Position numbers and translations under genes: made by a program. The notes beneath the pieces were generated by a model. The model saw only the letters and a program-made list of their open reading frames with translations, was not told the origin of the DNA and ran no database searches. A DNA stretch of 14,573 nt from Candidatus Aminicenantota bacterium. GTDB lineage: Bacteria; Acidobacteriota; Aminicenantia; JAMOAD01. Numbering within the stretch: the first letter of the stretch is position 1; each line of letters starts with the position of its first letter. Below are positions 38-14,197 of the stretch, in pieces. The stretch is from assembly GCA_027061995.1 (NCBI GenBank), contig JAMOUT010000015.1:1-14573 (forward strand), read 5' to 3'.

Positions 38-1069
38 CTAAACTATATCAATTTTAAAAGCTTTGATATTTAACCCTTGTAATTTATCCATGATAAACTC
101 CTCTTTTCCGGGAGCATAAAAAAACACGGTTCCTCCGCCCCCAGAACCATTGATTTTACCTCCCAAAGCTCCGTTTTTCATTGCAATGTCAAGTATTTTT
201 TCGATTTTTTCGGTGGATATCTCAAGATAATCTCTTAATATTTCATGCTCTTCATTCAAGTATTCACCCAATAAAGTTTCATCAATCTTATCCTTCTTTA
301 AAAGAGTCCGTCCTTTAATTGTTAATTGATAATTCATAACAGCGGCTTTACCGTATTTAATTAAATCAGAAGATAAAAAATAAAGCTCCTTTTCTTCAAG
401 CTCCGCAATATCAGCGTTTTTATATCTTTCCTTAATAAGTTTAAGTGCCGTTGTTTCCCCGTATTTCAATCTTTTTAAAACTCCGAAAGTATCCTTGGGT
501 GTTAAAGAATCTACAAGAACAAAACCCGACATGTTTTTTTTGAGTTTTTCATATTCTTTTTTAATAAAATCAAGATAAACAATCCCCCCTACGGCGGAAG
601 TATATTGATCCATCTTACCTCCTGGTTCTCCGAACTCTTCCACCTCCGCAAGATAAGCATATTCCCCTATCTCATAATCATCAGAGATATTCAGATTATA
701 AACATCTGACAAAAACCTTATCCACGCAACAGCAAGAGCCGAAGAAGAGGATGTTCCCGCCATTATAGGGATATTACTCCAAACTTCAACTTCAACCCCT
801 CTGTCTATCTCATATCCCTTTTTTCTTAAAATATTTATTCCGCTTTTAAAATAATCTCTCTCTTTTTCATAATTAAGTAATCCCTCTTTCGGCAGAATGA
901 ATTCCTCCCTTTCCTCCAAATCCAATTTATTTATTATAACTCTGTTATCATCTCTTAATTCCCCTTTTATATTAAAAAAAAGGTTGATAGCTCCCGCTAT
1001 TACGGGATGCCCTATATAATCCTGATGCTCTCCGAATATACAGATTCTTCCCGGGGCTTTACTCAGCAT
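38..1069 (-). CDS. GHMP-family sugar kinase, galactokinase-like
   Basis: This should be a cytoplasmic ATP-dependent kinase of the GHMP fold (343 aa), probably phosphorylating a free sugar at C1. Near the N-terminus it has GRICIFGEHQDYIGH, matching the galactokinase signature (GR...GEHxDYxxG). Mid-protein it has the ATP-loop motif PIMAGTSSSSAL. It then has GKMDQYTSAVGG, equivalent to the galactokinase GxMDQ segment that supplies the catalytic Asp. The C-terminal GHMP motif reads GGKINGSGGGGTVFF. I chose the ATG at 1069 because GGAGGAG lies just before it; a TTG at 1087 is possible but would put that site inside the gene. The kinase overlaps the end of the mutase gene by 11 bp and is followed at once by another gene. 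A mutase plus a GHMP kinase points to sugar 1-phosphate or nucleotide-sugar supply. Substrate (galactose, arabinose, fucose or uronic acid) cannot be read from sequence. Confidence 0.85.
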   Translation of the reverse strand: MLSKAPGRICIFGEHQDYIGHPVIAGAINLFFNIKGELRDDNRVIINKLDLEEREEFILPKEGLLNYEKERDYFKSGINILRKKGYEIDRGVEVEVWSNIPIMAGTSSSSALAVAWIRFLSDVYNLNISDDYEIGEYAYLAEVEEFGEPGGKMDQYTSAVGGIVYLDFIKKEYEKLKKNMSGFVLVDSLTPKDTFGVLKRLKYGETTALKLIKERYKNADIAELEEKELYFLSSDLIKYGKAAVMNYQLTIKGRTLLKKDKIDETLLGEYLNEEHEILRDYLEISTEKIEKILDIAMKNGALGGKINGSGGGGTVFFYAPGKEEFIMDKLQGLNIKAFKIDIV

Positions 1070-2426
1070 ATCTCCTCCATTTTTCAATTTTATTTATAAG
1101 CATATCCATTATCTCATCACTTTTATCTTCGGAATCGGATTCCGTTATAATTCGGACAACAGGCTCGGTATTAGACGGCCTCACATGAAACCAATACTCG
1201 GGAAAACCGATTTTTATCCCGTCGCTTAAATCCTCTATATTATCTGAAAATTCCTCTTTTAATTTTTCAAAAATTTTAGTATATTCAATATATGAAAGTT
1301 CTATCTTTGTCTTTTTCATAAAATATTCTTTCAACCCCTTTTTAAGTTCGGAAACCTTTTTATTACTCCACGCAAGATATTCAAGAAACAGCACCATTCC
1401 CGTAAAACTATCCCTGCAAAAATGGATATCTCCCGCTATTATCCCTCCGTTTCCCTCTCCCCCTATTTTCGAACCTTTTTTTATCATCTGTTCAACAACA
1501 TTAATCTCTCCCACTTTCGCTCTGAAAACCCGAACATTCTCTTCCTTTGCTATATCCTCTATCATTCTTGTTGTTGAAAGATTTACAACAATATCCGTCT
1601 TTGCTTTTCTTTTAAGATAATATTGAATGGCAAGGGATAAAGTGCTTTCCTCCCCTATGGGATTTCCGTTTTCATCCACAACTGCCAATCTGTCCGCATC
1701 CGCATCCTGAGCAAAACCAATATCAGCTTTCTCCCTTTTTACCTCTTTTGAAAGTTCGGAAAGATTTTCGGGAACAGGTTCGGGGTTTCTCGGAAAAATC
1801 TTATTTATATCCGTATTTATTGTCCTAACTTCGCAACCCAATTCTTCAAGAAAACTTTTAACAAAAGGGGAACCCGCTCCATTACAGGAATCAATAACAA
1901 CTTTTAGCTTTCTTTTTTTTATTAATTCTATATTTGCAAATTTTAATAGTTTCCTAAGATGAAATTTAAAAGAATCAGGATAATTTTTAACCGAATTATT
2001 ATTAAGCCCCACCCTTTTTGCCCTTTCCTGATTATATATATCAAATAATTCCTCGGCTTCATAAGAATAAAGATAATATCCCCCTTTTTTTATAAGTTTC
2101 AGGGCATTCCATTTCACCGGATTATGACTTGCGGTGATAGCAATTCCTCCCTGCGCACCTATGCTATCAACAAATATTTGAAAAGAGGGGATAGGGAGAA
2201 TTCCCGCATCTATCGGAGTCGCTCCCGCTGACAAAAGACCTGCGAACACTCCGTTTTTCACAAACTCTCTCGATGGTCTCGAATCATAGGCAACGGCAAT
2301 CTTTCCTCCCCCTGTCCATGTTGCAAAAGCTTCGGCAAAACTTATAATCAGCTTCGGTGTTAAGCTTTTACCGACTATCGCTCTTACACCTGAAACACTT
2401 ATCTTTAAATCAGAGCCTGCTTTCAT
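1059..2426 (-). CDS. Phosphohexomutase (phosphomannomutase/phosphoglucomutase/GlmM superfamily), catalytically intact
   Basis: This is an alpha-D-phosphohexomutase (455 aa, normal length) interconverting hexose 6- and 1-phosphates in the cytoplasm. All four active-site elements are present. The phosphoserine loop is TASHNP with Ser100. The metal loop is DADADR with Asp241, Asp243 and Asp245. The sugar-specificity loop is GEGNGG around Glu324, a form common in archaeal and deep-branching bacterial enzymes. The phosphate-binding loop is RPSNTEP (416-422). The start is the ATG at 2426, which overlaps the TGA of the upstream gene by one base (TGATG) and is preceded by AGAGG at seven bases. It is the middle gene of the operon and a paralogue of the gene before it. 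Whether it acts on mannose, glucose or glucosamine phosphates is not resolved; phosphomannomutase or GlmM-like are the main options. Confidence 0.92.
   Translation of the reverse strand: MKAGSDLKISVSGVRAIVGKSLTPKLIISFAEAFATWTGGGKIAVAYDSRPSREFVKNGVFAGLLSAGATPIDAGILPIPSFQIFVDSIGAQGGIAITASHNPVKWNALKLIKKGGYYLYSYEAEELFDIYNQERAKRVGLNNNSVKNYPDSFKFHLRKLLKFANIELIKKRKLKVVIDSCNGAGSPFVKSFLEELGCEVRTINTDINKIFPRNPEPVPENLSELSKEVKREKADIGFAQDADADRLAVVDENGNPIGEESTLSLAIQYYLKRKAKTDIVVNLSTTRMIEDIAKEENVRVFRAKVGEINVVEQMIKKGSKIGGEGNGGIIAGDIHFCRDSFTGMVLFLEYLAWSNKKVSELKKGLKEYFMKKTKIELSYIEYTKIFEKLKEEFSDNIEDLSDGIKIGFPEYWFHVRPSNTEPVVRIITESDSEDKSDEIMDMLINKIEKWRRYAE
1072..1078 (-). promoter_or_regulatory. Shine-Dalgarno site fixing the GHMP kinase start
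   Basis: On the minus strand the sequence reads ATGGAGGAGATATG. GGAGGAG sits just ahead of the ATG at 1069-1067 and inside the last codons of the upstream mutase gene. It decides for this ATG over the TTG 18 bases further upstream. Confidence 0.7.
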
Positions 2427-3772
2427 CAGTAAACCTCTAAAATATCCTCTATTTCAGCATAACTGTTTTCAAGCAATTGTTCATCTTCAGCTTCTATTAT
2501 TATTCTTAAAGCAAATTCAGTGGTGGAAGGTCTTATATTAAACCAAACCCCTTTTTTCTCCACCCTTATCCCGTCTATCGTCATAGGGTTAAGTTTACCA
2601 TACTTTTTTTCAAGATTATGCAAGGCTTTGTATGATTTTTCAAGAGGGATGAATTTTTTAAATTTTTTCATTATAAATCTATCATATTTTTTTATAATAT
2701 CCGAGATTGGTTTTCCTGTTTCAGCCATAAGCTGTAAAATAAGAGCAAGCGAGATAAAAGAATCATATCCGAAGGAAAGCTCTCTAATACAAACGCTTCC
2801 GCTACCTTCGCCACCGATCTCACTGTTTTTTGCTCTCATAAGATGAATAACGGCAGGCTGCCCCACTTTTGTTCTTAATACGGGGATATTAAATTCCTCC
2901 CCTATTATCTCTATGATTTTTGAAGTTGCAACAGTGGTTATAATTTGAGAATTAATATTCTTAATATATGCACGAGTTACAAGAGGAAGGGTAAATTCTT
3001 CGCTTAAACCTCTCCCTTTTTCATCTACTACCGATAATCTGCTCCCGTCACTATTAAACAAAAATCCGATATCGGAGGAAGTCGCCCGAACGGTTGCCTC
3101 TGTTTGATAACTGTTTTCAGGAGAAGGCTCCGGTTTATGAGGAAATTTCCCCGTGATTTTATCATTAAGATGGATTAAGTTTATATTAAAATATTGAGCG
3201 AATTTATCCATTATTTTTACGGGAGAAGAGCTGCAACTGTCAACAACTATTTTAAACCTGTTTTTTCTAATCTCTTCAGTATTAACAATAGAACCTATTT
3301 TCTCAATATATTTATCAATATCAGCATCAATATTTTTTATTTTACCCAAATTATCCCAGGAAACTTTTTTAAAATCTTTTGAATGATAAATATTAAAAAT
3401 CTCTTTTCCTTCTATAAAATCGGGATAAGAGCCGTCTCTATTTAATAAAAGAAGAGCATTCCAATTCTCGTTATTATGCCCCCCCGTTATGGAGATTCCA
3501 GCATCAAAGACCCTGTCTTTCAAAAAAAATTGGACAACAGGGGTTGGCAATACCCGTAGGAAAGAGGTATCAAGCCCCGAAGAGGAAAGAGATGAGATAA
3601 CCGAATGAGCAAACATCCTTCCCGACCATCTTCCGTCGGTTATAACAGCTATATCCCCCTTTTCAAGGTAGGTCGCATAAGCGGAAGTAAAATCGGAAAC
3701 AATTGAAACATTCAAACCTTCGGGAACTTTCCCTCTTATACCTGATGTTGTAATCCTAATTTTATCACTCAT
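2426..3772 (-). CDS. Pseudo-phosphohexomutase: paralogue lacking the catalytic Ser and metal ligands
   Basis: The protein (448 aa) aligns end to end by eye with the next gene's phosphohexomutase, sharing the N-terminal SG(V/I)R segment, VVDSC and NPEPVPEN/KPEPSPEN. Its active site has been rewritten. The phosphoserine loop TASHNP is TGGHNN (96-101), so Gly98 replaces the essential Ser. The metal loop DADADR is NSDGSR (240-245), losing two of three Asp ligands. GEGNGG is GEGSGS (Glu322 kept), and RPSNTEP is RPSTTEF. The ligand-binding loops thus survive better than the catalytic ones. The frame is open and full length, so this is not a decayed pseudogene. By the usual mechanism it should not catalyse phosphoryl transfer. 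A structural or regulatory partner of the active enzyme, or a sugar-phosphate sensor, is my inference. It is the first gene of the operon. Confidence 0.85.
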   Translation of the reverse strand: MSDKIRITTSGIRGKVPEGLNVSIVSDFTSAYATYLEKGDIAVITDGRWSGRMFAHSVISSLSSSGLDTSFLRVLPTPVVQFFLKDRVFDAGISITGGHNNENWNALLLLNRDGSYPDFIEGKEIFNIYHSKDFKKVSWDNLGKIKNIDADIDKYIEKIGSIVNTEEIRKNRFKIVVDSCSSSPVKIMDKFAQYFNINLIHLNDKITGKFPHKPEPSPENSYQTEATVRATSSDIGFLFNSDGSRLSVVDEKGRGLSEEFTLPLVTRAYIKNINSQIITTVATSKIIEIIGEEFNIPVLRTKVGQPAVIHLMRAKNSEIGGEGSGSVCIRELSFGYDSFISLALILQLMAETGKPISDIIKKYDRFIMKKFKKFIPLEKSYKALHNLEKKYGKLNPMTIDGIRVEKKGVWFNIRPSTTEFALRIIIEAEDEQLLENSYAEIEDILEVY

Positions 3773-3799: not shown

Positions 3800-3828
3800 A
3801 TTATATTCCAATAATAAAGGTTAGTCAA
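3800..3828 (-). promoter_or_regulatory. Sigma-70-type promoter of the sugar-phosphate operon
   Basis: On the minus strand TTGACT (3828-3823) and TATAAT (3805-3800) are separated by exactly 17 bp. Transcription should start near 3793, leaving a leader of about 20 bases before the ATG at 3772. The start has only a weak purine-rich ribosome site (AAGAGAAAAAG). No operator-like symmetry is obvious. Confidence 0.8.
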
Positions 3829-3946: not shown

Positions 3947-4645
3947 TTATTTATCAGCTCTTATTTTCTCGTTAATCTCTTCCAAAGAATCTTTTTGCAT
4001 ATCCAAAATCTCCATTATCATTTGATTTTGATATAAGATAAGATGGTCAATCTTTTCGTGTAATAATTTTATCTCTAATTCAGCTTTTAAATTAATCTTA
4101 TAATCATTTTCCCCTCTTTTTCTGTCTTTTTCCTCTTGTCTGTTTTGACTCATCATTATTACGGGAGCTTGAATTGCGGCAAGTGTTGATAAAAAAAGGT
4201 TTAATAAGATAAAAGGATAAGGATCAAAAGGTTTTGAGGCTAAAAACCAAATATTTGTTGCCATCCAAAGGACAAGAAATACGGCAAAAGAGATAATAAA
4301 TGTCCAACTTCCTCCGAATTTGGCAACCTTATCCGCTATTTTTTGTCCGGTTGTCAGCTTATCCTTTAAATCATCTTCAACATCACTTGCTATTAAGGTT
4401 TTATTAGAAACAGCCTCAATAACCGATTTATCTATGGTTCGAAATTTTTTATTCTCTTTTTTTATAAGATTTACCAAATGATTATCCCTGTATTTTACCG
4501 CCTCTTTTTTTTCAATAAGGCAATCTCTGTTAAAAGAAGGGTAATCCTTTTTTATTAACTCAAAAACAGGAGCTCGTAAAAGATGAGCACTGATGTATAA
4601 ATTTTTATCAACTTTACCTTTCTTTTTACAAATTATCTTTTCCAT
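3947..4645 (-). CDS. DUF1003 family inner-membrane protein
   Basis: This is a 232-aa protein with two transmembrane segments: a first helix containing WTFIISFAVFLVLWMATNIW and, after a short loop (PFDPYP), a second containing FILLNLFLSTLAAIQAPVIM. The SQNRQEEKDRKR tail of the second helix and the long charged, probably coiled-coil C-terminus are typical of DUF1003 proteins, whose function is unknown. In relatives as I recall them, the N-terminal domain usually carries two CxxC pairs. Here only single cysteines remain (CKKKGK, and RDCLIEKKEA), so a zinc site has probably been lost. I chose ATG 4645 because GGAGG lies seven bases upstream; the in-frame GTG at 4651 is only one base from that site. 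No convincing promoter is visible; a TATAAA lies at 4666-4671 but lacks a good -35. It appears to be a single-gene unit. Confidence 0.85.
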   Translation of the reverse strand: MEKIICKKKGKVDKNLYISAHLLRAPVFELIKKDYPSFNRDCLIEKKEAVKYRDNHLVNLIKKENKKFRTIDKSVIEAVSNKTLIASDVEDDLKDKLTTGQKIADKVAKFGGSWTFIISFAVFLVLWMATNIWFLASKPFDPYPFILLNLFLSTLAAIQAPVIMMSQNRQEEKDRKRGENDYKINLKAELEIKLLHEKIDHLILYQNQMIMEILDMQKDSLEEINEKIRADK

Positions 4646-4652
4646 ACTCACA

Positions 4653-4870: not shown

Positions 4871-5842
4871 TTATTCTATTTCCCACTTGATTTTTTTTAA
4901 TCTAAGTGAAAGATTTGTCAATGTGTATAGAATTTCCTTATTAGTTGGGAATTTCCCATATACTAATTCTCTAAAACCGGTATTATAAGTATTTTGTAGT
5001 TGTTCCCAAATAGTGTCCGGTTTATCGAATAGTATTGCAAAAGAAGGATGTTTTTTTAGCCAGTTATTTTCTTTTAAAACAGAATAATCATCAACCCCCA
5101 CTTTTTGTAGCATTTTATCAAAATCGAGCGAGTTAAAAAAAACATTTATTGAATCATCCTTTAATAACATATGAATATCATAAATATGTCTAATTTTTCT
5201 ACTTAATTCTTCTATAGGTTTTTCAGAAAAAGAAAATCTAACCAAACTCATGATTTTTTCGCAAAGTGTTCTCTTAGGACTCAATACATTAACTTTGAAT
5301 GGATTCATTTCATATTCATCTATGAGTTTTTGTTGACCTGATTCTTTCATCATGTTATATATCATTGAACCAATAATCCCTTTTTCGAATGGTTCATAAT
5401 TTCCCAACCAACTTGATTCAACAATAATAATATCTCTTATTTGTCCGAATTTACCCGTGAATTGTTTTTCGTAATAATGGGCTGTTTTCCTAATCATCCC
5501 TTTTTTATTAGTAATTCCTTCAACCACAATCTCGGGAAGAATGTTTTCCACATAGTTTGAAATAATTTTAAGTTTTTTCTTTAATTGATTTCCAGATTCC
5601 TCTGATTTATTTAATACTACAAGGTCAATATCTTCTGAAAACCTTTTTATTAAATTATTGCATTTTGATAAAGCTGTTCCACCTTTAAAAACAGTTTCTT
5701 TTCCTATATCACTTTCAAATACAGATTTCAAAACAGAGGTTATCCAATAATCTTTTTCGATAAAAATCTCTTGAATACCCTTTTTTTGTGAAGTTGCGAT
5801 TATTGCGTTTTTAAATAATTCTTTGTTCGTATGTAATTTCAT
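4871..5842 (-). CDS. abiEii: AbiEii-family nucleotidyltransferase toxin (type IV toxin-antitoxin)
   Basis: This 323-aa protein has the four AbiEii motifs. Motif I is FKGGTALSK (residues 52-60). Motif II is RFSEDIDLVVL, with Asp71 and Asp73 as likely metal ligands. Motif III is TLCEKIMSL with Lys196. Motif IV is RKIRHIYDIHMLL with Tyr221-Asp222. In studied members the enzyme adds nucleotides to a cellular target (for example tRNA acceptor ends in MenT-type toxins), arresting growth and aborting phage infection; the target here is unknown. I chose ATG 5842, giving a 4-bp ATGA overlap with the antitoxin and an N-terminus (MKLHTNKELF) typical of the family. The GTG at 5854 has no better ribosome site. 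The overlap implies coupled translation. All motif residues are intact, so the toxin should be active. Confidence 0.9.
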   Translation of the reverse strand: MKLHTNKELFKNAIIATSQKKGIQEIFIEKDYWITSVLKSVFESDIGKETVFKGGTALSKCNNLIKRFSEDIDLVVLNKSEESGNQLKKKLKIISNYVENILPEIVVEGITNKKGMIRKTAHYYEKQFTGKFGQIRDIIIVESSWLGNYEPFEKGIIGSMIYNMMKESGQQKLIDEYEMNPFKVNVLSPKRTLCEKIMSLVRFSFSEKPIEELSRKIRHIYDIHMLLKDDSINVFFNSLDFDKMLQKVGVDDYSVLKENNWLKKHPSFAILFDKPDTIWEQLQNTYNTGFRELVYGKFPTNKEILYTLTNLSLRLKKIKWEIE

Positions 5843-6564
5843 TTTATTTTCCACTTTTCAGTTGTCGGTAAAATGTTTTTATCAATTCCCAATGAATATT
5901 CGGTAAATGGGTTCAAGCTTTCTTGCAATTCATCAAGATTTTCTTTTATGTTGTTTGCTTCTAATAAAGCACCAAGTAAAGCCCTTGTTCTCGGAGGATA
6001 CTTCAGGCTATATTTTATAATTTTTTTAGTTTCCCCTTTTTTCAGTTTTTTAAGTATTTCAGATAAAATTTTTAATCCGTTTTTTATTTTTAGGTCGGGT
6101 ATTTTTTTAAAATCCTTCAAAGCATCCAATATTTCAAGATATTGATAGTTCCTATTTGTAACCTCCACATAACTTTTTACCGGCAATGCTTTTATATTGG
6201 TTTTATTTATTTTAATCACTTTTTCCCTGCTTGCAATTTTTATTATTTGGGGGATTTGTGTTGTTAAACCTAATTTATTATATAGAAAGGTTCCTGTAAT
6301 ATATGCGATTCTTTTCCCTCCTTTAAATAAATAGGATTTTAGGATTTCCTCATTATCAGGTAATAATTCTCCGAAAACAGTTTTTTTTGGTTTATAAAAA
6401 AGACCTGTTGAAATCCGTTTAATTATCTCTCTTTTTATTAATCGTTCGATTGTTTTTGATGTGGCTGAATACTCTTCTCTCTTTATTGTCAGGTCTTTAT
6501 AGGTAAATGTTTTCCCTTTTTCAATATTACTAATTTTTTCTTCGATCCTTTTTGCTATATTCAT
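5839..6564 (-). CDS. abiEi: AbiEi-like antitoxin and autorepressor (DUF6088 type)
   Basis: This 241-aa protein is encoded directly upstream of the AbiEii toxin. Residues 1-60 look like a winged helix-turn-helix (GKTFTYKDL, TSKTIERLIKREIIKRIS, GLFYKPKK), followed by the longer alpha/beta domain usual in DUF6088/AbiEi antitoxins. Known AbiEi proteins neutralise the toxin without stable binding and repress their own operon by binding inverted repeats in the promoter. A matching inverted repeat lies here at 6592-6625. The ATG at 6564 (MNIAKRIEEK) is the sensible start, because the 20 upstream in-frame codons are simply promoter and operator DNA. There is no Shine-Dalgarno, and the predicted transcript starts at or next to this ATG, so translation may be leaderless. 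Confidence 0.85.
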   Translation of the reverse strand: MNIAKRIEEKISNIEKGKTFTYKDLTIKREEYSATSKTIERLIKREIIKRISTGLFYKPKKTVFGELLPDNEEILKSYLFKGGKRIAYITGTFLYNKLGLTTQIPQIIKIASREKVIKINKTNIKALPVKSYVEVTNRNYQYLEILDALKDFKKIPDLKIKNGLKILSEILKKLKKGETKKIIKYSLKYPPRTRALLGALLEANNIKENLDELQESLNPFTEYSLGIDKNILPTTEKWKIK

Positions 6565-6570
6565 ACTATT

Positions 6571-6599
6571 AATATAATAATTTTTTATAAATTTGTCAA
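6571..6599 (-). promoter_or_regulatory. Promoter of the AbiE operon, predicted leaderless start
   Basis: On the minus strand TTGACA (6599-6594) and TATATT (6576-6571) are separated by 17 bp. Only six bases lie between the -10 box and the ATG at 6564, so the expected transcription start falls on the initiation codon. Confidence 0.75.
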
Positions 6600-6625
6600 G
6601 TATTATAATGAAAATACTTGACAAA
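6592..6625. promoter_or_regulatory. Operator candidate: 13-bp inverted repeat over the AbiE -35 box
   Basis: TTTGTCAAGTATT (6592-6604) and AATACTTGACAAA (6613-6625) are perfect inverted repeats with an 8-base spacer. The promoter's -35 hexamer lies inside the proximal arm, so a bound repressor would block RNA polymerase. AbiEi binding is inferred from the behaviour of the family. Confidence 0.75.
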
Positions 6626-7090: not shown

Positions 7091-8659
7091 TTAATTTAAA
7101 TTTTCTCTAAATTCTTTAAAAACATTTCTTGTATAATTTTCCATATCTTTAAAATTTTCTCTCTTCAGAGTTGTTTCTACAAATTCCTTTAGTGAATAAG
7201 GTTTCAGATTTACTTTATAATTATCCTTTTTTGCCATTACTATTGAAATGTCAAAAAATCTTTTTGTATCCATATGAATAAAGGGAGCAACGAATGATAA
7301 ATATTTATTAAGTCTATTTGAAATTTCTTCATTTGAAAACAAATGACGAATTACTGATGTTGTTTCATTATTCAACTGTTGAGTTTTATTCCGTATAAGC
7401 GTAACTTCAATTAACCAATAAATATCATCAGAATATATTTCAATATCTCCCTTATTACCGGGTGCGTGAGAATAAGGTTTTCCTATATGGTCGGCTTTAT
7501 AGTTTGGTCTTATTGAGAATTCTTTACCGTATTTTAAAGCAATTAATATAGAAATATAAAATTCTAATTTTAAAGGATCCGGTATTTCTTTAAATTCTTC
7601 AATTATTGCTTTCTTGCTACCAATTTTATCAATACTTTTTATAATTATTTCTTCGTTAATTTTGTAGTTTTCAATAATGTCAAAAATTTTATTTACATAT
7701 TCACTCCCCTTTATGATGTCTTCCTTTCTATATTTGCTAATTAATGATAGTAATTTATCATTTTTTGTTTCAAGTTTGTTAAAATATTTAATACTATCAG
7801 TTTTTTCTTCTTCTGTTAATGAAAATTCATATTTTAAAAGTTCATTGATATATTTCAATTTATTTTCATTTATCTGAATTAATTTTTTCCCACTATACCT
7901 AATTGATACAAAACCTGAAATAATAAAAACTCTTCTTACAACATCGGGATAATCTTTTGTTGCAGTTTTTTCATTAGTTGTTAAATTGTAATTCTTTTTT
8001 ACAAAATCAAATGCAGAAGAAAAATCCTTGAAATTATTATTATTTATGATGTTAATAAAGTCATTAACATCTCCTTTTTCACTAAACATTGCAACAATAA
8101 ATTGCTCATAACTAAGAGATTTCCCCTTTTCTTTTAATTTTATTAAAACTTTAAGGATAAAACTGAAAAAATTAAAATCATTAGTTACATTTCTATAAGG
8201 ATTTTTCCTGTTGTATTTTATAGCTTGAATAGAAAATGCTTCTTGCTCATCAATTTTTCCTTCTATAAGTTTTTTAGCAATAGTTGAAAACTTGAAAGTT
8301 TTATTATATCTTGCATAGACAAAACCTAATTCTGATGGTGTTCGCATATATGTCCAAAATCTTGATGCATATCCACTTGGGAAACCCCCATCTGCCCTTC
8401 GTGATTTATTTACCTTTGCAACATGGTCTTTAATATCATCAATGGTTGTTGTTTCGTCAACAACAACATCATCACTGGTAACAATTTTATTCAAATAAAG
8501 ATGAGACACTATTTTTAACAAATTTTCGTCATTTAATATAGTCCCATCAAACTCTTTAAGTGCAGTAAATATTTCTAAATATCGTTCAGGATTTCTTACG
8601 GCTGTTTCAAAAGCCATTTGTTTATATGTCGGTTTTCTTTTAATTCCTTTTTTTCTCAT
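7091..8659 (-). CDS. AlwI-family type IIS restriction endonuclease
   Basis: This 522-aa protein matches the AlwI/MlyI/PleI/BstNBI endonuclease family. The N-terminal half carries the DNA-recognition region (RADGGFPSGYASRFWTYMR, then TPSELGFV). The C-terminal PD-(D/E)XK cleavage domain shows LEFYISILIALKYG with Glu366, HAPGNKGDIEIY with Asp405, and LIEVTL with Glu418, followed by ETTSVIRHL. Family members bind short asymmetric sites (GGATC or GAGTC) and cut a few bases to one side; BstNBI-type relatives cut only one strand because they dimerise poorly. Which behaviour applies here cannot be read from sequence. The gene starts five bases after the stop of the Dam-like methyltransferase, with no Shine-Dalgarno, so translation probably depends on upstream ribosomes. 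Being last in the operon lets protection precede cutting. Catalytic residues look intact. Confidence 0.88.
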   Translation of the reverse strand: MRKKGIKRKPTYKQMAFETAVRNPERYLEIFTALKEFDGTILNDENLLKIVSHLYLNKIVTSDDVVVDETTTIDDIKDHVAKVNKSRRADGGFPSGYASRFWTYMRTPSELGFVYARYNKTFKFSTIAKKLIEGKIDEQEAFSIQAIKYNRKNPYRNVTNDFNFFSFILKVLIKLKEKGKSLSYEQFIVAMFSEKGDVNDFINIINNNNFKDFSSAFDFVKKNYNLTTNEKTATKDYPDVVRRVFIISGFVSIRYSGKKLIQINENKLKYINELLKYEFSLTEEEKTDSIKYFNKLETKNDKLLSLISKYRKEDIIKGSEYVNKIFDIIENYKINEEIIIKSIDKIGSKKAIIEEFKEIPDPLKLEFYISILIALKYGKEFSIRPNYKADHIGKPYSHAPGNKGDIEIYSDDIYWLIEVTLIRNKTQQLNNETTSVIRHLFSNEEISNRLNKYLSFVAPFIHMDTKRFFDISIVMAKKDNYKVNLKPYSLKEFVETTLKRENFKDMENYTRNVFKEFRENLN

Positions 8660-8664
8660 AATTT

Positions 8665-9642
8665 CTATAAAACTTTAATTTTTTCTTTTTCAAATGTAAA
8701 GTCTAATTCTAACTCAATAACTTTTTTCTCTGTTTTGTAATTGGTAATCAATACTTCTTTAAATGATTTTATAGTATTGTCGTGATAACTAATATAATTG
8801 CTTTTTATATCAAATGAATTATATTTTTTGCTCCATTCCAAAAACCTATTATTTGTTTTTCCTTTATAATGTGTAATATTTGAAATAGCAAAGTTTACAT
8901 TTTTTCCGTGTAATTCATCAAGTAAATTAATAAGTTTTTGTTCACTTTGTTCGTTCCAATATTTATTATATTCGCTAAATGTTATTAAATATGGCGGATC
9001 AAGATAAATAAAATCATCTGTTTGAAAATCAATTTGCTTTATAAAATCAACAAAATCAAGATTGTAAAAGTTTATCTTTTTATTTTTGACTATTCTAAAA
9101 TAGTTTAATAATGCATTATAAACATTTTTATTAAAATCTACATTTCCAACCGGCAAATTATATTCACCTTTTGAATTAAATCTTAACATTCTATTAAAAC
9201 CATATATTAATAAAAGATACAAATGTAAAATATCATTATGGTTTGACTTATTATAATCTTTTTTTAATTTTTGAAATCCTGTTTTGTTAAATTTGGCATA
9301 ATAAGTTTTTTTCCATTGTTCTTTTAATTCCATTGGAACTATATCTTTAATGTATGAATGAGATAAACCGTATTCATATATTTTTTGTTTGATTTTTTCA
9401 AAAAAAACAGTAGGATTTTTAGCTTGTTGCATTAAAAATCGATGGATCTTCACTACATTTTCATCTATATCATTTAAAAAATATTCATCTGCATTAATAT
9501 TTAAAAAAACAGAACCTCCGCCGGTGAATGGCTCAATAAATCTATTTATTTTTTGAGGGAATATTTTTTTTATTTCAGGCAATAATTTGTATTTATCACC
9601 AACATAAAATAAAGGAGAACGATATATCATATTATTACTCAT
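8665..9642 (-). CDS. DNA N6-adenine methyltransferase, Dam/DpnII-like (D12 class)
   Basis: This protein (325 aa) transfers methyl groups from S-adenosylmethionine to adenine N6. Motifs run in the D12 (alpha) order: YVGDKYKLL at the N-terminus, the SAM-binding EPFTGGGSVF (37-46), LNDID (56-60), the target-recognition segment FNRMLRFNSKGEYNLPVG (149-166), and catalytic DPPY (215-218). This is the Dam/DpnII subgroup. The gene overlaps the upstream methyltransferase by 8 bp and has no ribosome site; an internal ATG at 9630 is an alternative start that loses four residues. With two methyltransferases and one AlwI-type endonuclease, each probably modifies one strand of an asymmetric site containing adenine on both strands. 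GATC specificity alone is another possibility. Confidence 0.88.
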   Translation of the reverse strand: MSNNMIYRSPLFYVGDKYKLLPEIKKIFPQKINRFIEPFTGGGSVFLNINADEYFLNDIDENVVKIHRFLMQQAKNPTVFFEKIKQKIYEYGLSHSYIKDIVPMELKEQWKKTYYAKFNKTGFQKLKKDYNKSNHNDILHLYLLLIYGFNRMLRFNSKGEYNLPVGNVDFNKNVYNALLNYFRIVKNKKINFYNLDFVDFIKQIDFQTDDFIYLDPPYLITFSEYNKYWNEQSEQKLINLLDELHGKNVNFAISNITHYKGKTNNRFLEWSKKYNSFDIKSNYISYHDNTIKSFKEVLITNYKTEKKVIELELDFTFEKEKIKVL

Positions 9643-10978
9643 ATTTTTTTGTTAAAAATAAAAATTCTTTATGGTTTACAAAATCTGTTTTTCCTGTATT
9701 AAAAAATCTATGCGGTTGTTCAAATACTTTTGTATTACCAACTTCATTCAAAATTTGATTGATTTCTTCCAATTTAATCTTATTTTCAGATGATTTGCTT
9801 TTAGATTTGTAAGTATTGTTATAAGAAACAACAAGATATTTAACATTAAGATTTTGAACTAAATCACGGAACATCTCTTTTGCCTTTACTGTGCAATATT
9901 TACTCATATTTTCAGGTTTTGGTTTTAATGCAACACCATATAATTTAGGTTTATCCCATTTTACCAAAGTTTCATAAAGATGGTAAAAACGGCTATATTG
10001 GCGAGAATTATATGGCGGGTCTATATATGCAATATCAGCGGTAATTTTTCTTGCTAATTCATTAGCATCTTTTCGGTAAATTTCTACGCCTTTAAAATCT
10101 TCTGTTTTTATAAGTTTTACTTGAAAATTTGTTTTACGAATAGGTTTTTTAATATAAGCGTCAAAGTGCCCGACTGTATTCGCAACTTTATCCATAGAAT
10201 AAATCAAGCTTGATAGAAGGATGTTATATTCCTTATTTTTTAGATCTTTTTTTAATTTTTCTATATCTTCACGAATAAAACCTATTTTTTTTGCAATATT
10301 ATACTCAAAAAATTTGTTCCCGAAATTTTCTGAGAAATAATTATCTTGTAATTTGTTAGCATTGATAGAATTGTAATAATGCAATAATTTTGTTAATTTG
10401 TTTTTATTCCAATTTTCAAGTTTAAAAAATGCTTGATATATAATATAATTTGAATAAAGAATATCATTAATTATAACTTTCTTGTATTTTTTCATTGCCT
10501 TTTTTGCAACACTTGCTGTTCCCGAGAAAACATCAACAAAACTCTTTACATCTGTTGTTTCTTTATCAATAACTTGCATTATCCAGTCTGTTAATTTTGC
10601 TTTATTTCCTATGTATCTCCGACTTTCTAAATTTATATTATCCTCTATCTCATATCTGGGGAAAAGATATGCTTGATATTTAATCTTTTCTTCCGCAAGT
10701 TGTAATGCTTCAAGACTAATATCAATTGCTGTATATCTTTTTACTTCATCAAAAATTTTATCGCTTATTAAGATTTTTAAAAGTTCTTTTTTATTGTAAT
10801 TATAAAAGACAGATAGTCTTTCAATTTGTTCTTTTGTTGGCAACCTTTTTCCTGTTTCTATACGACTTAAAAGAGTGAAATTTATATCTGTTTGTGTTGC
10901 AACATCTTGTAACATTAAATTTCTACTCTCTCTAATCTTTTTTAAAACATTCCCTATTGTAATAAAAGTTTCTATCAT
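9635..10978 (-). CDS. Adenine methyltransferase with N-terminal XRE DNA-binding domain
   Basis: This 447-aa fusion joins an XRE/Cro helix-turn-helix (roughly residues 6-65: IGNVLKKIRESRNLMLQDVA, then TLLSRIETGKRLPT) to a D12-class N6-adenine methyltransferase. The second part shows RRYIGNKAKLTDWI, the SAM motif VDVFSGTASV (about 149-158), INDI, and the catalytic DPPYNSRQYSRFYHLYET from about 320. The long motif after DPPY resembles FokI/StsI-type methyltransferases of asymmetric sites. I chose ATG 10978; the TTG at 10999 lies inside operator-like DNA. It is the first gene of the operon, downstream of a consensus promoter with paired TTGTCA sites. The domain probably gives autoregulation, doing the job of a separate controller protein. 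The region between the domains (about 75-115) has no recognised fold. Confidence 0.88.
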   Translation of the reverse strand: MIETFITIGNVLKKIRESRNLMLQDVATQTDINFTLLSRIETGKRLPTKEQIERLSVFYNYNKKELLKILISDKIFDEVKRYTAIDISLEALQLAEEKIKYQAYLFPRYEIEDNINLESRRYIGNKAKLTDWIMQVIDKETTDVKSFVDVFSGTASVAKKAMKKYKKVIINDILYSNYIIYQAFFKLENWNKNKLTKLLHYYNSINANKLQDNYFSENFGNKFFEYNIAKKIGFIREDIEKLKKDLKNKEYNILLSSLIYSMDKVANTVGHFDAYIKKPIRKTNFQVKLIKTEDFKGVEIYRKDANELARKITADIAYIDPPYNSRQYSRFYHLYETLVKWDKPKLYGVALKPKPENMSKYCTVKAKEMFRDLVQNLNVKYLVVSYNNTYKSKSKSSENKIKLEEINQILNEVGNTKVFEQPHRFFNTGKTDFVNHKEFLFLTKKYE

Positions 10979-10993
10979 AATTCCAACACAATT

Positions 10994-11009
10994 TGACAAT
11001 TTATGACAA
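10994..11009. promoter_or_regulatory. Operator candidate: two TTGTCA sites 10 bp apart
   Basis: On the minus strand TTGTCA occurs at 11009-11004 and 10999-10994, one helical turn apart, just after the -10 box and across the expected start site. ATTTGACA (10991-10998) and TGTCAAAT (11034-11041) also form an 8-bp inverted pair linking this site to the -35 region. The XRE domain encoded just downstream is the natural candidate ligand. Confidence 0.6.
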
Positions 11010-11099: not shown

Positions 11100-11136
11100 T
11101 CATAATTTGTTTATCTCTCTCTATAAAACCTGTCTC
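11100..11136. repeat. 37-bp direct repeat, copy 2 (true 3' end of the RlaP gene)
   Basis: This is identical to 6838-6874. It contains the last codons and TAA stop of the RlaP gene (11111-12169) plus 11 bases beyond. It is taken as the original copy because it is continuous with an intact gene. Confidence 0.9.
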
Positions 11137-12169
11137 TGATTTTGTATGTTAATTCATTAATCGCATTCCTGTCAGGTTTTTCTTGTAAATCCGATTTTGC
11201 AAAAGCCTCCTCCATTTCCTCTTGTTTTTCTTTTGCCATTATTAATAAATCCTCATACTCATATTTTCCGTTTTTAATATTAAGTAAAAATTCACGGTCA
11301 TCCCTTTTTACTTTTATCTTTTTTTCTTTTGCTATTTCAATCGCCATCTGTAAAAGTCTGAATGTGTGCATCATGTTTTTAGCATCATACTTTTTCCCGT
11401 GTTTTTGAGTGCTTTGATATCTTGCTTCATTTCTGTTTTTCACCCATTCCCAATATTCCTTATATTCTTTACAATATCTTGAATATTCCTCTTTGTTGAA
11501 ATAAACCAATGCAACTTGTTTTTCCCCTTTCGGAACAGAGCTTAAACTGATATCATTTGATAACTCGTTTTTTATAATCCCTCTATAGTCCGCTTTTTCA
11601 TTATAAAATAAAGCATACATATTTTTCATATGGGGGATTTTAGTTAAACCGCAATTCTTCTGTTTATAATTGTTGATTTTAAGAAATTCCGGTAATAAAA
11701 CAGAGCCGTTTTCATAATTAACATAACAAAAGGATAAAAGAGTTTTTCTCTTTTTATCAATAGGATTAACTATTTTCTTTTTTAATCCCTTGGCTTTTTT
11801 TATTTGAGATAAAGCATACTTTCCGAAAGTGTTTTTGCAAAGCTTTGACAGTATTAATTCAGGCTTAATCTCGTTTAAAAACGGATGCTTATAGAGAATA
11901 GTATCCTTCGGGGCACTCAATAACTCCAAAATATTGGGATTGTTTAGGGATAATAGTTCCATAAAACGGTTGAATTCATAATAAACAATATCATTTGTGG
12001 AATTGCTAATCTGCGAGATATAATCAAGCCCGTAAAAATCTTTTTTGGGCAATAAAAAAACCCCTTTTATATCAGTATCGGAAGCAGGGGTATCAAGACC
12101 ATATGCTCTGCTTCCGCTTACACTTTCAAAAATAATTAAATTTTTTCTTTTTATCTCATCTATGTTCAT
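11111..12169 (-). CDS. RlaP/YcgL-family nucleotidyltransferase (long paralogue)
   Basis: This 352-aa protein belongs to the predicted polymerase-beta-fold nucleotidyltransferases typified by Bacillus YcgL and called RlaP. The signature is ESVSGSRAYGLDTPASDTD: Gly19-Ser20 and the catalytic pair Asp31-x-Asp33. A third candidate Asp is Asp60 in NDIVYYEF. A helical C-terminal region follows, with LLSFCYVNYENGS and KNMMHTFRLLQMAIEIA. RlaP proteins are predicted to act in RNA repair or end modification; no substrate has been settled to my knowledge. The ATG overlaps the end of the upstream paralogue by 14 bp, implying co-translation. Its last codons are duplicated at 6838-6874. No RNA ligase gene is in the window, so the link to RNA repair comes from the family only. 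Confidence 0.85.
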   Translation of the reverse strand: MNIDEIKRKNLIIFESVSGSRAYGLDTPASDTDIKGVFLLPKKDFYGLDYISQISNSTNDIVYYEFNRFMELLSLNNPNILELLSAPKDTILYKHPFLNEIKPELILSKLCKNTFGKYALSQIKKAKGLKKKIVNPIDKKRKTLLSFCYVNYENGSVLLPEFLKINNYKQKNCGLTKIPHMKNMYALFYNEKADYRGIIKNELSNDISLSSVPKGEKQVALVYFNKEEYSRYCKEYKEYWEWVKNRNEARYQSTQKHGKKYDAKNMMHTFRLLQMAIEIAKEKKIKVKRDDREFLLNIKNGKYEYEDLLIMAKEKQEEMEEAFAKSDLQEKPDRNAINELTYKIRDRFYRER

Positions 12170-12929
12170 AACGATTAAGTGTTTTTAAAAAAAACAAATT
12201 CAACTTATTTATATCCCTCTTTGCCGCAGGTAACTCCTCTCTCTTATTATCAGATTCATTAATGCAATCTTCCATAAAATCGATTAATCTCTCTTCCCCT
12301 TTATGATAATACTTCTCACTTACCTTTGCTTTTAAGGAAATTAATTCATTGATACGATTTATCATTGACTTTGATAAATTCAAGTTATTAACCATTTTAA
12401 GAAATTCAATGGGCGGCATCTGTTCTTTTTCCAATATCCATTTACAAGCGGTAGCCGCTCTTAAAGCATAAAAGAATTTTTTCAATCTGTATTCTTTCTT
12501 CCCTTTAATCTCTTCAAGAAATTTTTTAGCCATACTCAAATAATGATGAATTGCAGCAATTCTCGAATATTCCCCTTTTGCAATTGTTTTTATCTCTTTC
12601 AGAAACTCATTATCGCTTTTGTAAATTATCGGTGATTGAATCCTTTCCAATAAAGGGGGATTTGATTTATGTAAAAGCATCAGTGTTTTCCTTAAATCCC
12701 AACCGGCAATATCAATTTGATTATTTTCAAACATCAAATTAATGCTATCTTTATTTTTTGAAAGAGATAAATACCACTCTTTTTTATGTTTATATATTAT
12801 ACGAACATCATAATCACTATCGGGAGAGTGAAAACCCCAAGCTCTTGAACCTGTTTCACAAGCCAAAAGAATTTTCATATCTTTTTCCTCTTCGATTTTT
12901 GTCAAATATCGGTTTATTTTATCCCTCAT
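12156..12929 (-). CDS. RlaP/YcgL-family nucleotidyltransferase (short paralogue)
   Basis: This 257-aa protein belongs to the same family as the gene after it. It has CETGSRAWGFHSPDSDYD: Gly27-Ser28, Asp39 and Asp41. A third acidic residue is Asp73 in QIDIAGWDLRK. The C-terminal half is helical (HHYLSMAKKFLEEI, FFYALRAATACKWILE), as usual for this family's HEPN-like extension. Both paralogues keep the metal-binding triad, so both should be catalytic; they differ in length and signature (GSRAWGFHS against GSRAYGLDT), pointing to distinct substrates or a heteromer. The start is ATG 12929, six bases from the -10 box and with no Shine-Dalgarno. This is the first gene of a two-gene operon. Confidence 0.85.
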   Translation of the reverse strand: MRDKINRYLTKIEEEKDMKILLACETGSRAWGFHSPDSDYDVRIIYKHKKEWYLSLSKNKDSINLMFENNQIDIAGWDLRKTLMLLHKSNPPLLERIQSPIIYKSDNEFLKEIKTIAKGEYSRIAAIHHYLSMAKKFLEEIKGKKEYRLKKFFYALRAATACKWILEKEQMPPIEFLKMVNNLNLSKSMINRINELISLKAKVSEKYYHKGEERLIDFMEDCINESDNKREELPAAKRDINKLNLFFLKTLNRYEHR

Positions 12930-13326: not shown

Positions 13327-13361
13327 TTCATCACTCATAATTCAGCATTCATCATTCATAA
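13327..13361. repeat. Heptamer tandem repeat array, locus C, overlapping the KilA-N stop
   Basis: On the plus strand there are five units: TTCATCA, CTCATAA, TTCAGCA, TTCATCA, TTCATAA, then TTATCTTCC. The array supplies the TGA stop (13354-13352) and, with its TTATCTT flank, the last codons (DNYE) of the KilA-N gene. Confidence 0.8.
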
Positions 13362-14197
13362 TTATCTTCCCCGCTTTTTTTTAACTTTCTTATACTGCTA
13401 TCTTCAACAAGTATTTTCATTTGTTGAATAGCTATTTGATTTAATTTTTCAAGTCTTACAGGTTGTGAATAGCCCTCTTCTATAAAAACAGCATTCAAAT
13501 TTTCAAGATTGGCAAGACAAACCAATTGTGCCACATTGGCATAATCTCTGATATTCCCTTTTTTATCCGGGTTTTCTTCTCGCCATTGTTTGGCGGTTTT
13601 CCCGAACAAAGCCATGTTCAAAACATCAGCCTCATTGGCGTATATAAAATTTATTTGCTGCTTTGAAAGATGCTCAGGAATCAAATTCTCCTTTATTGCA
13701 TCAGTATGAATACGGTAATTAATCTTTGTCAGTTGTCGTTTAATATCCCATCCGAGTTGTTTTTGCTCTTTTTCTTTTAATCGCTGAAATTCCTTTATTA
13801 AATAGAGTTTAAACTCAACCGAAATCCAAGAAGCAAATTCAAAAGCTATATCCTTGTGAGCGTAAGTTCCGCCATATCTTCCCGATTTTGAAATAATACC
13901 AATAGCATTTGTCTTTTCAATCCATTGTTTAGGTGTTAATACAAAACTATTTAATCCGGCTTTATTTCTAAACCCCTCGAATTCGATGGGATTAAAATCA
14001 GGATTGTTTAAGCGTTCCCAAATGCCAAGAAATTCAATGGTATTCCGATTGCGCAGCCAATTTTGAATAATATAATCAGTTCGTTTAGAATCTTTAAATC
14101 GAGCTATATCAGTTAGACTTATATAATCCTCTCTCGTTGAAGATTGCAGTCTTATTAATGTTCCTTTAACTTCTATTTTTTTAGTATGCTTTTTCAT
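13352..14197 (-). CDS. KilA-N domain protein, phage-type DNA-binding
   Basis: This 281-aa protein has a KilA-N domain in its first half (about residues 20-140): YISLTDIARFKDSKRTDYII, NWLRNRNTIEFLGIWE, then the conserved GGTYAHKDIAFEFASWIS and FKLYLIKEFQRLKEKE. KilA-N occurs in phage and large-virus proteins and is thought to bind nucleic acid; many bacteria carry stand-alone copies of this length with no known role. The second half (LSKQQINFIYANEADVLNMA, LFGKTAKQWREENPDKKGNI) is helical and I cannot assign it. ATG 14197 lies within a heptamer repeat, with AGG nine bases upstream. It has its own consensus promoter and appears to be monocistronic. Both ends touch the repeat family, hinting at a passenger gene or rearrangement. 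Confidence 0.85.
   Translation of the reverse strand: MKKHTKKIEVKGTLIRLQSSTREDYISLTDIARFKDSKRTDYIIQNWLRNRNTIEFLGIWERLNNPDFNPIEFEGFRNKAGLNSFVLTPKQWIEKTNAIGIISKSGRYGGTYAHKDIAFEFASWISVEFKLYLIKEFQRLKEKEQKQLGWDIKRQLTKINYRIHTDAIKENLIPEHLSKQQINFIYANEADVLNMALFGKTAKQWREENPDKKGNIRDYANVAQLVCLANLENLNAVFIEEGYSQPVRLEKLNQIAIQQMKILVEDSSIRKLKKSGEDNYE

Follow-up and report, generated by a model that had tools for sequence, protein, structure and literature searches.

A tandem pair of phosphohexomutase genes

The window, that is, the whole 14,573-nucleotide stretch of Candidatus Aminicenantota DNA that we analyzed, contains on its minus strand two adjacent genes of the phosphohexomutase (PHM) type, and we refer to the inactive copy as PSE and to the intact adjacent mutase as ACT. 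PSE (2426..3772, minus strand) is an uninterrupted reading frame of 448 codons running from the ATG at 3772 to the TGA stop at 2428-2426, and the PGM_PMM_I, II, III, and IV domains of its 448-residue product each scored above the Pfam cut-off. It aligned with ACT from end to end at 33% identity, which bears out an earlier note on this DNA that described a full-length PHM paralogue beside an active mutase. ACT (1059..2426, minus strand; 455 residues) contains the motifs TASHNP, DADADR, GEGNGG, and RPSNTEP together with Lys110, and its score of 466.1 bits against TIGR03990 (Arch_GlmM; cut-off 439) identifies it, at the level of sequence, as an archaeal-GlmM-type mutase. The same model was the best NCBIfam match for PSE, at 367.8 bits and thus under the cut-off.

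The stop codon of PSE overlaps the start codon of ACT in the sequence TGATG (2426..2428, minus strand), an arrangement that likely couples translation of ACT to that of PSE. The third gene encodes a GHMP (galactokinase-like) sugar kinase (38..1069, minus strand) recognized by domain matches; its likely ATG at 1069 lies behind a GGAGG and overlaps the end of ACT, and the mechanically called ORF start is a TTG at 1087. Upstream of PSE is a promoter-like TTGACT-17-TATAAT (3800..3828, minus strand), which is a consensus match only, at 11 of 12 positions. The suggestion in the earlier note that PSE is the first gene of its operon would fit both this site (3828-3800) and the TGATG overlap. The assembly has a second copy of the pair on a contig of 3,064 bases (L038, G000:C36:1-3064), with PSE 91% and ACT 92% identical to the window genes; the promoter-like site is kept there, though the more distal upstream DNA diverges, and this copy may represent either another locus or a variant from a different strain. 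Since a PMM/PGM-like gene and a GlmM-like gene, both read by eye, are present elsewhere in the genome, the PSE/ACT pair is extra to housekeeping functions.

Several other genes noted in the window are also on the minus strand. Upstream of the mutase operon is a gene for a DUF1003 protein (3947-4651). An AbiEii-family nucleotidyltransferase with a DUF6088 partner (4871-6624) is probably a type IV toxin-antitoxin pair. An AlwI-type restriction endonuclease and two D12-class adenine methyltransferases, one of them with an N-terminal HTH domain, occupy 7091-10999 and probably constitute a restriction-modification system. Two tandem genes of the RlaP family (RNA repair nucleotidyltransferases) at 11111-12929 form another divergent tandem pair, in which one member matches the Pfam model far more closely than its neighbor, and a KilA-N domain protein is encoded at 13352-14197.

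The AF2 model of PSE (mean pLDDT 93.1, pTM 0.93) predicts that the PHM fold is retained. In Foldseek searches, the closest solved folds were those of Pyrococcus horikoshii 1WQA and Thermococcus kodakarensis 9DU5, with TM scores of 0.90-0.93 (0.90 for 1WQA) at 28% identity. These archaeal-type PHMs (TIGR03990) are the nearest matches to PSE in both sequence and structure and share its four domains; PSE differs from them in lacking the phosphoserine, the first and third metal-binding Asp, the Lys, and the acid/base candidate.

Catalytic losses and retained ligand contacts

At the position of the phosphoserine, PSE has Gly98 (codon GGG, 3479..3481, minus strand), its TGGHNN replacing TASHNP as the earlier note had observed. 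The alignment showed Gly here in 79/79 full-length PSE relatives and Ser in 68/68 partners, so this substitution is more than chance. A Lentisphaeria sequence (L128), which was left out of the 79, reads GHQ for GHN and has Gly at the serine position as well. The metal loop DADADR is replaced by NSDGSR (residues 240-245; 3038..3055, minus strand), and the claim that two of the three metal-ligand Asp residues had been replaced holds at these residues in the sequence. Beyond the losses listed in that note, we found two more. The window PSE has Leu at the position of ACT Lys110 (WNALL versus WNALK), a residue that corresponds to Lys118 of Pseudomonas aeruginosa PMM/PGM. In addition, Gln305 (2858..2860, minus strand) replaces ACT Glu307, which is probably the general base or acid-base candidate, and aligns with the His308 position of P. 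aeruginosa PMM/PGM; this residue was Glu in 68/68 active and Gln in 71/79 inactive sequences. All 68 full-length ACT proteins retained the Ser, the Lys, the DxDxD loop, and Glu307. Thus, the window PSE lacks the phosphorylatable serine, the DxDxD loop, and the catalytic Lys of an active PHM, while it keeps the four-domain fold, the Glu of the sugar loop, and the R.S.T pattern of the phosphate loop. We read the ORF at 2426-3772 (minus strand) as a dedicated pseudoenzyme within the alpha-D-phosphohexomutase superfamily.

The extent of the catalytic loss is graded across the family. In a deep tier, which comprises 54 sequences, mainly from Aminicenantes, the metal loop reads NxDxS, the Lys is missing, and Glu307 is mostly replaced by Gln. 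The shallow group (Blastocatellia and Armatimonadota) keeps the Lys and has DxDxE or, in some members, DxDxD, usually with Gln for Glu. Because the shallow members are changed only at the Ser, usually at the general base, and often at one metal Asp (to Glu), a complete loss of catalysis can be asserted with confidence, as judged from sequence, for no more than the deep tier, to which the window PSE belongs; shallow members, with the Lys and most metal ligands in place, could have retained a chemistry other than that of a mutase.

The residues that contact the ligand have had a different fate. The sugar-binding loop GEGSGS (residues 321-326, with Glu322; 2795..2812, minus strand) and the phosphate-binding loop RPSTTEF (residues 414-420, with Arg414, Ser416, and Thr418; 2513..2533, minus strand) are retained, confirming that Glu322 and most of RPSTTEF are kept, and the R, S, T, and E of the latter were invariant in 79/79. 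Ten residues that make phosphate and sugar contacts (R13, D46, R48, H99, R245, E322, R414, S416, T418, and E419 in PSE numbering) showed little or no variation in the deep and shallow tiers alike. Over the whole set, only four highly conserved positions discriminated PSE from ACT, of which S100G, E307Q, and N326S belong to catalytic or ligand loops, the fourth being G258S. Among deep PSE members, conservation was 0.81 in the sugar loop and 0.68 in the domain-4 phosphate loop, compared with 0.60 overall; the neutral evolution of the binding loops that would have contradicted the earlier note was therefore not seen. The domain-4 Asn of SNTE is absent from the deep members, and for this reason the ligand of PSE may differ from that of ACT.

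This pattern bears on the possibility that PSE is a catalyst of another kind, whose serine-less pocket accepts a phosphoryl donor from solution or relies on a different nucleophile (e.g., His99) and makes, stores, or hydrolyses a hexose-1,6-bisphosphate that primes ACT. The mutase partner is expected to require a bisphosphate primer, His99 was invariant in 79/79, and Blastocatellia and Armatimonadota keep the Lys, the Arg, and DxDxD or DxDxE, which exceeds the strict needs of binding and counts against a role in binding only. However, Gln occupies the position of the general base in 71/79, and the metal site and the Lys are gone in the deep tier, which makes a single family-wide chemistry unlikely. 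We regard this reading as quite improbable.

Inheritance of the pair and selection on PSE

Similar tandem pairs turned out to be widespread, contrary to the absence elsewhere that would have refuted the earlier note. Among 60 related genomes, 20 contained PSE and ACT, 39 contained neither, and one (G007) contained a broken ACT only; every one of the 20 PSE-bearing relatives had ACT, in some of them cut by contig ends. Scanning 84,980 species genomes yielded 124 confirmed matches, with 80 loci listed among them. It assigned the host lineage to Candidatus Aminicenantes and also revealed the pair in Blastocatellia, Pyrinomonadaceae, gp4 and gp11 Acidobacteria, Chloracidobacterium, Armatimonadota, and Lentisphaerota. 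More pairs from Acidobacteriota and Armatimonadota came to light in pattern searches whose matches were translated; many raw pattern matches lay outside mutase genes, and raw counts were not taken as prevalence. We rejected the idea that the pair is a curiosity of Aminicenantes, as pairs occur in other Acidobacteriota, Armatimonadota, and Lentisphaerota.

PSE precedes ACT in 78/79 pairs, and in 59/79 the two genes overlap or lie no more than 25 bp apart (-40 to +25 bp). Of 48 Blastocatellia-class genomes, eight had ACT and six of these also had PSE (in G537 on another contig). Two apparent cases of ACT without PSE were discarded: in G564 the contig breaks off immediately upstream of ACT, and its edge still encodes the C-terminus of PSE, and in G568 the contig ends inside ACT, so that it is not assessable. 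With G564 included, PSE accompanied ACT in 7/7 Blastocatellia with an assessable ACT. Conversely, PSE without ACT was not found where the contig permitted a full check, save in L100, a locus whose frame looks broken and whose partner is incomplete. G007 lacks PSE, and its truncated ACT continues in frame from an unrelated, lipoprotein-like N-terminus (L028, 568-1518); joint loss of the pair or a misassembly is possible there.

A tree built with twelve catalytic and ligand-loop columns left out placed the PSE sequences on one side of a branch with SH-aLRT 98 (a quick search, no bootstrap), indicating from sequence a single origin of the inactive clade. The PSE and ACT subtrees contain matching groups, and pairwise distances among PSE sequences track those among their ACT partners (r = 0.91, 68 pairs), a value largely due to shared ancestry; these mirror trees thus mostly reflect common descent and do not prove contact between PSE and ACT.

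Comparison of dN/dS (NG86) between the window and the C36 copy gave 0.085 for PSE and 0.111 for ACT. Other close pairs with unsaturated dS mostly gave about 0.06-0.12 for both genes, with a few higher values, among them 0.35 for PSE in L062/L063. These ratios indicate purifying selection on PSE. With regard to mutase activity, the proposal of a selected pseudoenzyme is thus well supported by the widespread pairs, the conserved loops, and the dN/dS of 0.085. The loss of catalytic residues is what would be seen in a decaying duplicate, a pseudogene in the making, but 79 open full-length homologues in several phyla, a dN/dS of about 0.09, and invariant loops refute this explanation, to which we give a negligible chance. 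A pseudogene or an assembly artefact was rejected on the homologues and the low dN/dS alike.

The strict co-occurrence, the coupled translation with PSE first, and the broken ACT of G007, which has no PSE, would also be expected if PSE were an obligate structural partner that senses nothing and that ACT needs only for folding or stability. A pure scaffold, however, has no need of invariant sugar and phosphate loops, and we consider this alternative unlikely.

Pathway context and a proposed regulatory role

The genes around the pair point to amino-sugar metabolism. Across 82 loci, many of them cut by contig ends, a GHMP kinase homologous to that of the window lies near the pair in 30 and a NagA-like gene in 23. 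In Aminicenantes, the neighbors include NagB fused to GHMP kinase (TIGR00502, 277 versus a cut-off of 237), NagA (TIGR00221, 305 versus 226, in L048), and a NagZ-like beta-N-acetylhexosaminidase (PRK05337 model, 215 versus 207). The upstream gene in Blastocatellia encodes a GHMP kinase fused to a GlmU-like nucleotidyltransferase domain and lies near an MFS transporter gene. In Saccharicenans-type loci (L047, 9012-12392; L085, 1006-2775; L103, 8839-11664), the pair is surrounded by GH38-like, fucose-isomerase-like, and exo-beta-glucosaminidase-type GH2 genes. Given NagA, NagB, the NagZ-like enzyme, the GHMP kinase, and the GlmU-like domain in the neighborhood, the simplest reading of the pathway is amino-sugar salvage, with the mutase linking the 1-phosphate and the 6-phosphate. 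GHMP kinase, NagA, and NagB are frequent, not universal, neighbors; the sole near-constant neighbor of PSE is the mutase.

This last observation weighs against the view that PSE is a sugar-phosphate sensor acting on a target other than the mutase, such as the GHMP kinase, a transporter, or a regulator. A PHM is known as a protein regulator from the binding of GlmM to the cyclase CdaA/DacA (PMC8573169, PMC6368335), which resembles the role proposed for PSE, except that GlmM is an active mutase and its partner is a diadenylate cyclase. The retained ligand residues and the kinase in the operon would also suit such a sensor, yet the constant neighbor is not the kinase, and in fully checkable contigs PSE was not seen apart from ACT, with the exception of L100 noted above. 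We judge a target other than ACT to be doubtful.

The conserved fold and ligand sites, the absence of catalytic groups, the strict pairing, and the PSE-first coupling suggest a regulatory or obligatory subunit. Our preferred reading, to which we assign a probability of about 55%, is that PSE is a dedicated pseudoenzyme made first and in step with ACT, that it forms a hetero-oligomer with ACT, and that it regulates ACT by binding a hexosamine phosphate (or 1,6-bisphosphate). PSE would be translated first and coupled to ACT, the two proteins would assemble, and the retained pocket of PSE would bind the ligand and thereby adjust ACT, as GlgD does GlgC. The pair would probably stand at the branch point between hexosamine 1-phosphate and 6-phosphate in an amino-sugar salvage operon: the kinase would supply the sugar 1-phosphate and the mutase would convert it to the 6-phosphate for NagA/NagB, with a GlmU-like uridylyltransferase offering an alternative fate for the 1-phosphate. 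We infer the ligand binding, the hetero-oligomer, the regulation, and the exact substrate. The chain numbers of several archaeal PHM entries, deposited with up to four, make a PSE/ACT hetero-oligomer at most plausible.

Two known systems help to place this proposal. PGM5 (aciculin) is an inactive vertebrate PHM that still binds sugar phosphate; in contrast to PSE, this eukaryotic protein keeps the serine (seen phosphorylated) and the metal site, and its gene has no active twin beside it in an operon (PMC7761743). The ADP-glucose pyrophosphorylase GlgC/GlgD of Firmicutes is a functional analogue, in which an inactive paralogue modulates a catalytic sugar-phosphate enzyme within a heterotetramer, GlgD altering both the kinetics of GlgC and its response to effectors (PMC9093745). 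As in that system, the inactive and active genes of PSE/ACT are adjacent and inherited together, whereas the fold and reaction are unrelated and the complex is proven for GlgC/GlgD and inferred for PSE/ACT.

The papers searched, which cover the literature incompletely, contained no earlier description of a bacterial PHM pseudoenzyme. One shallow PSE (L125) scored 451.8 bits against TIGR03990, above the cut-off of 439, which does not exclude Ser-less members. Because curated cut-offs fail to separate them from active phosphoglucosamine mutases, serine-less shallow members are likely annotated as enzymes. More tentatively, and with somewhat less than even confidence, we hypothesize that PSE represents a hitherto unreported family of serine-less PHMs, spread over several phyla, that form obligate hetero-oligomers with ACT, sense hexosamine phosphate, and control the flux between the breakdown of amino sugars and UDP-amino-sugar salvage, with a graded catalytic loss that began with the phosphoserine.

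PHMs are commonly regarded as self-sufficient enzymes. The long shared inheritance of PSE and ACT makes it probable that the inactive protein serves the active one as a regulatory subunit. With its shallow and deep stages, the PSE family offers a natural series on how an enzyme becomes a regulator, and the conservation of an inactive copy within an operon of its own would point to an unrecognized layer of control, or to hetero-oligomers, in bacterial amino-sugar metabolism.
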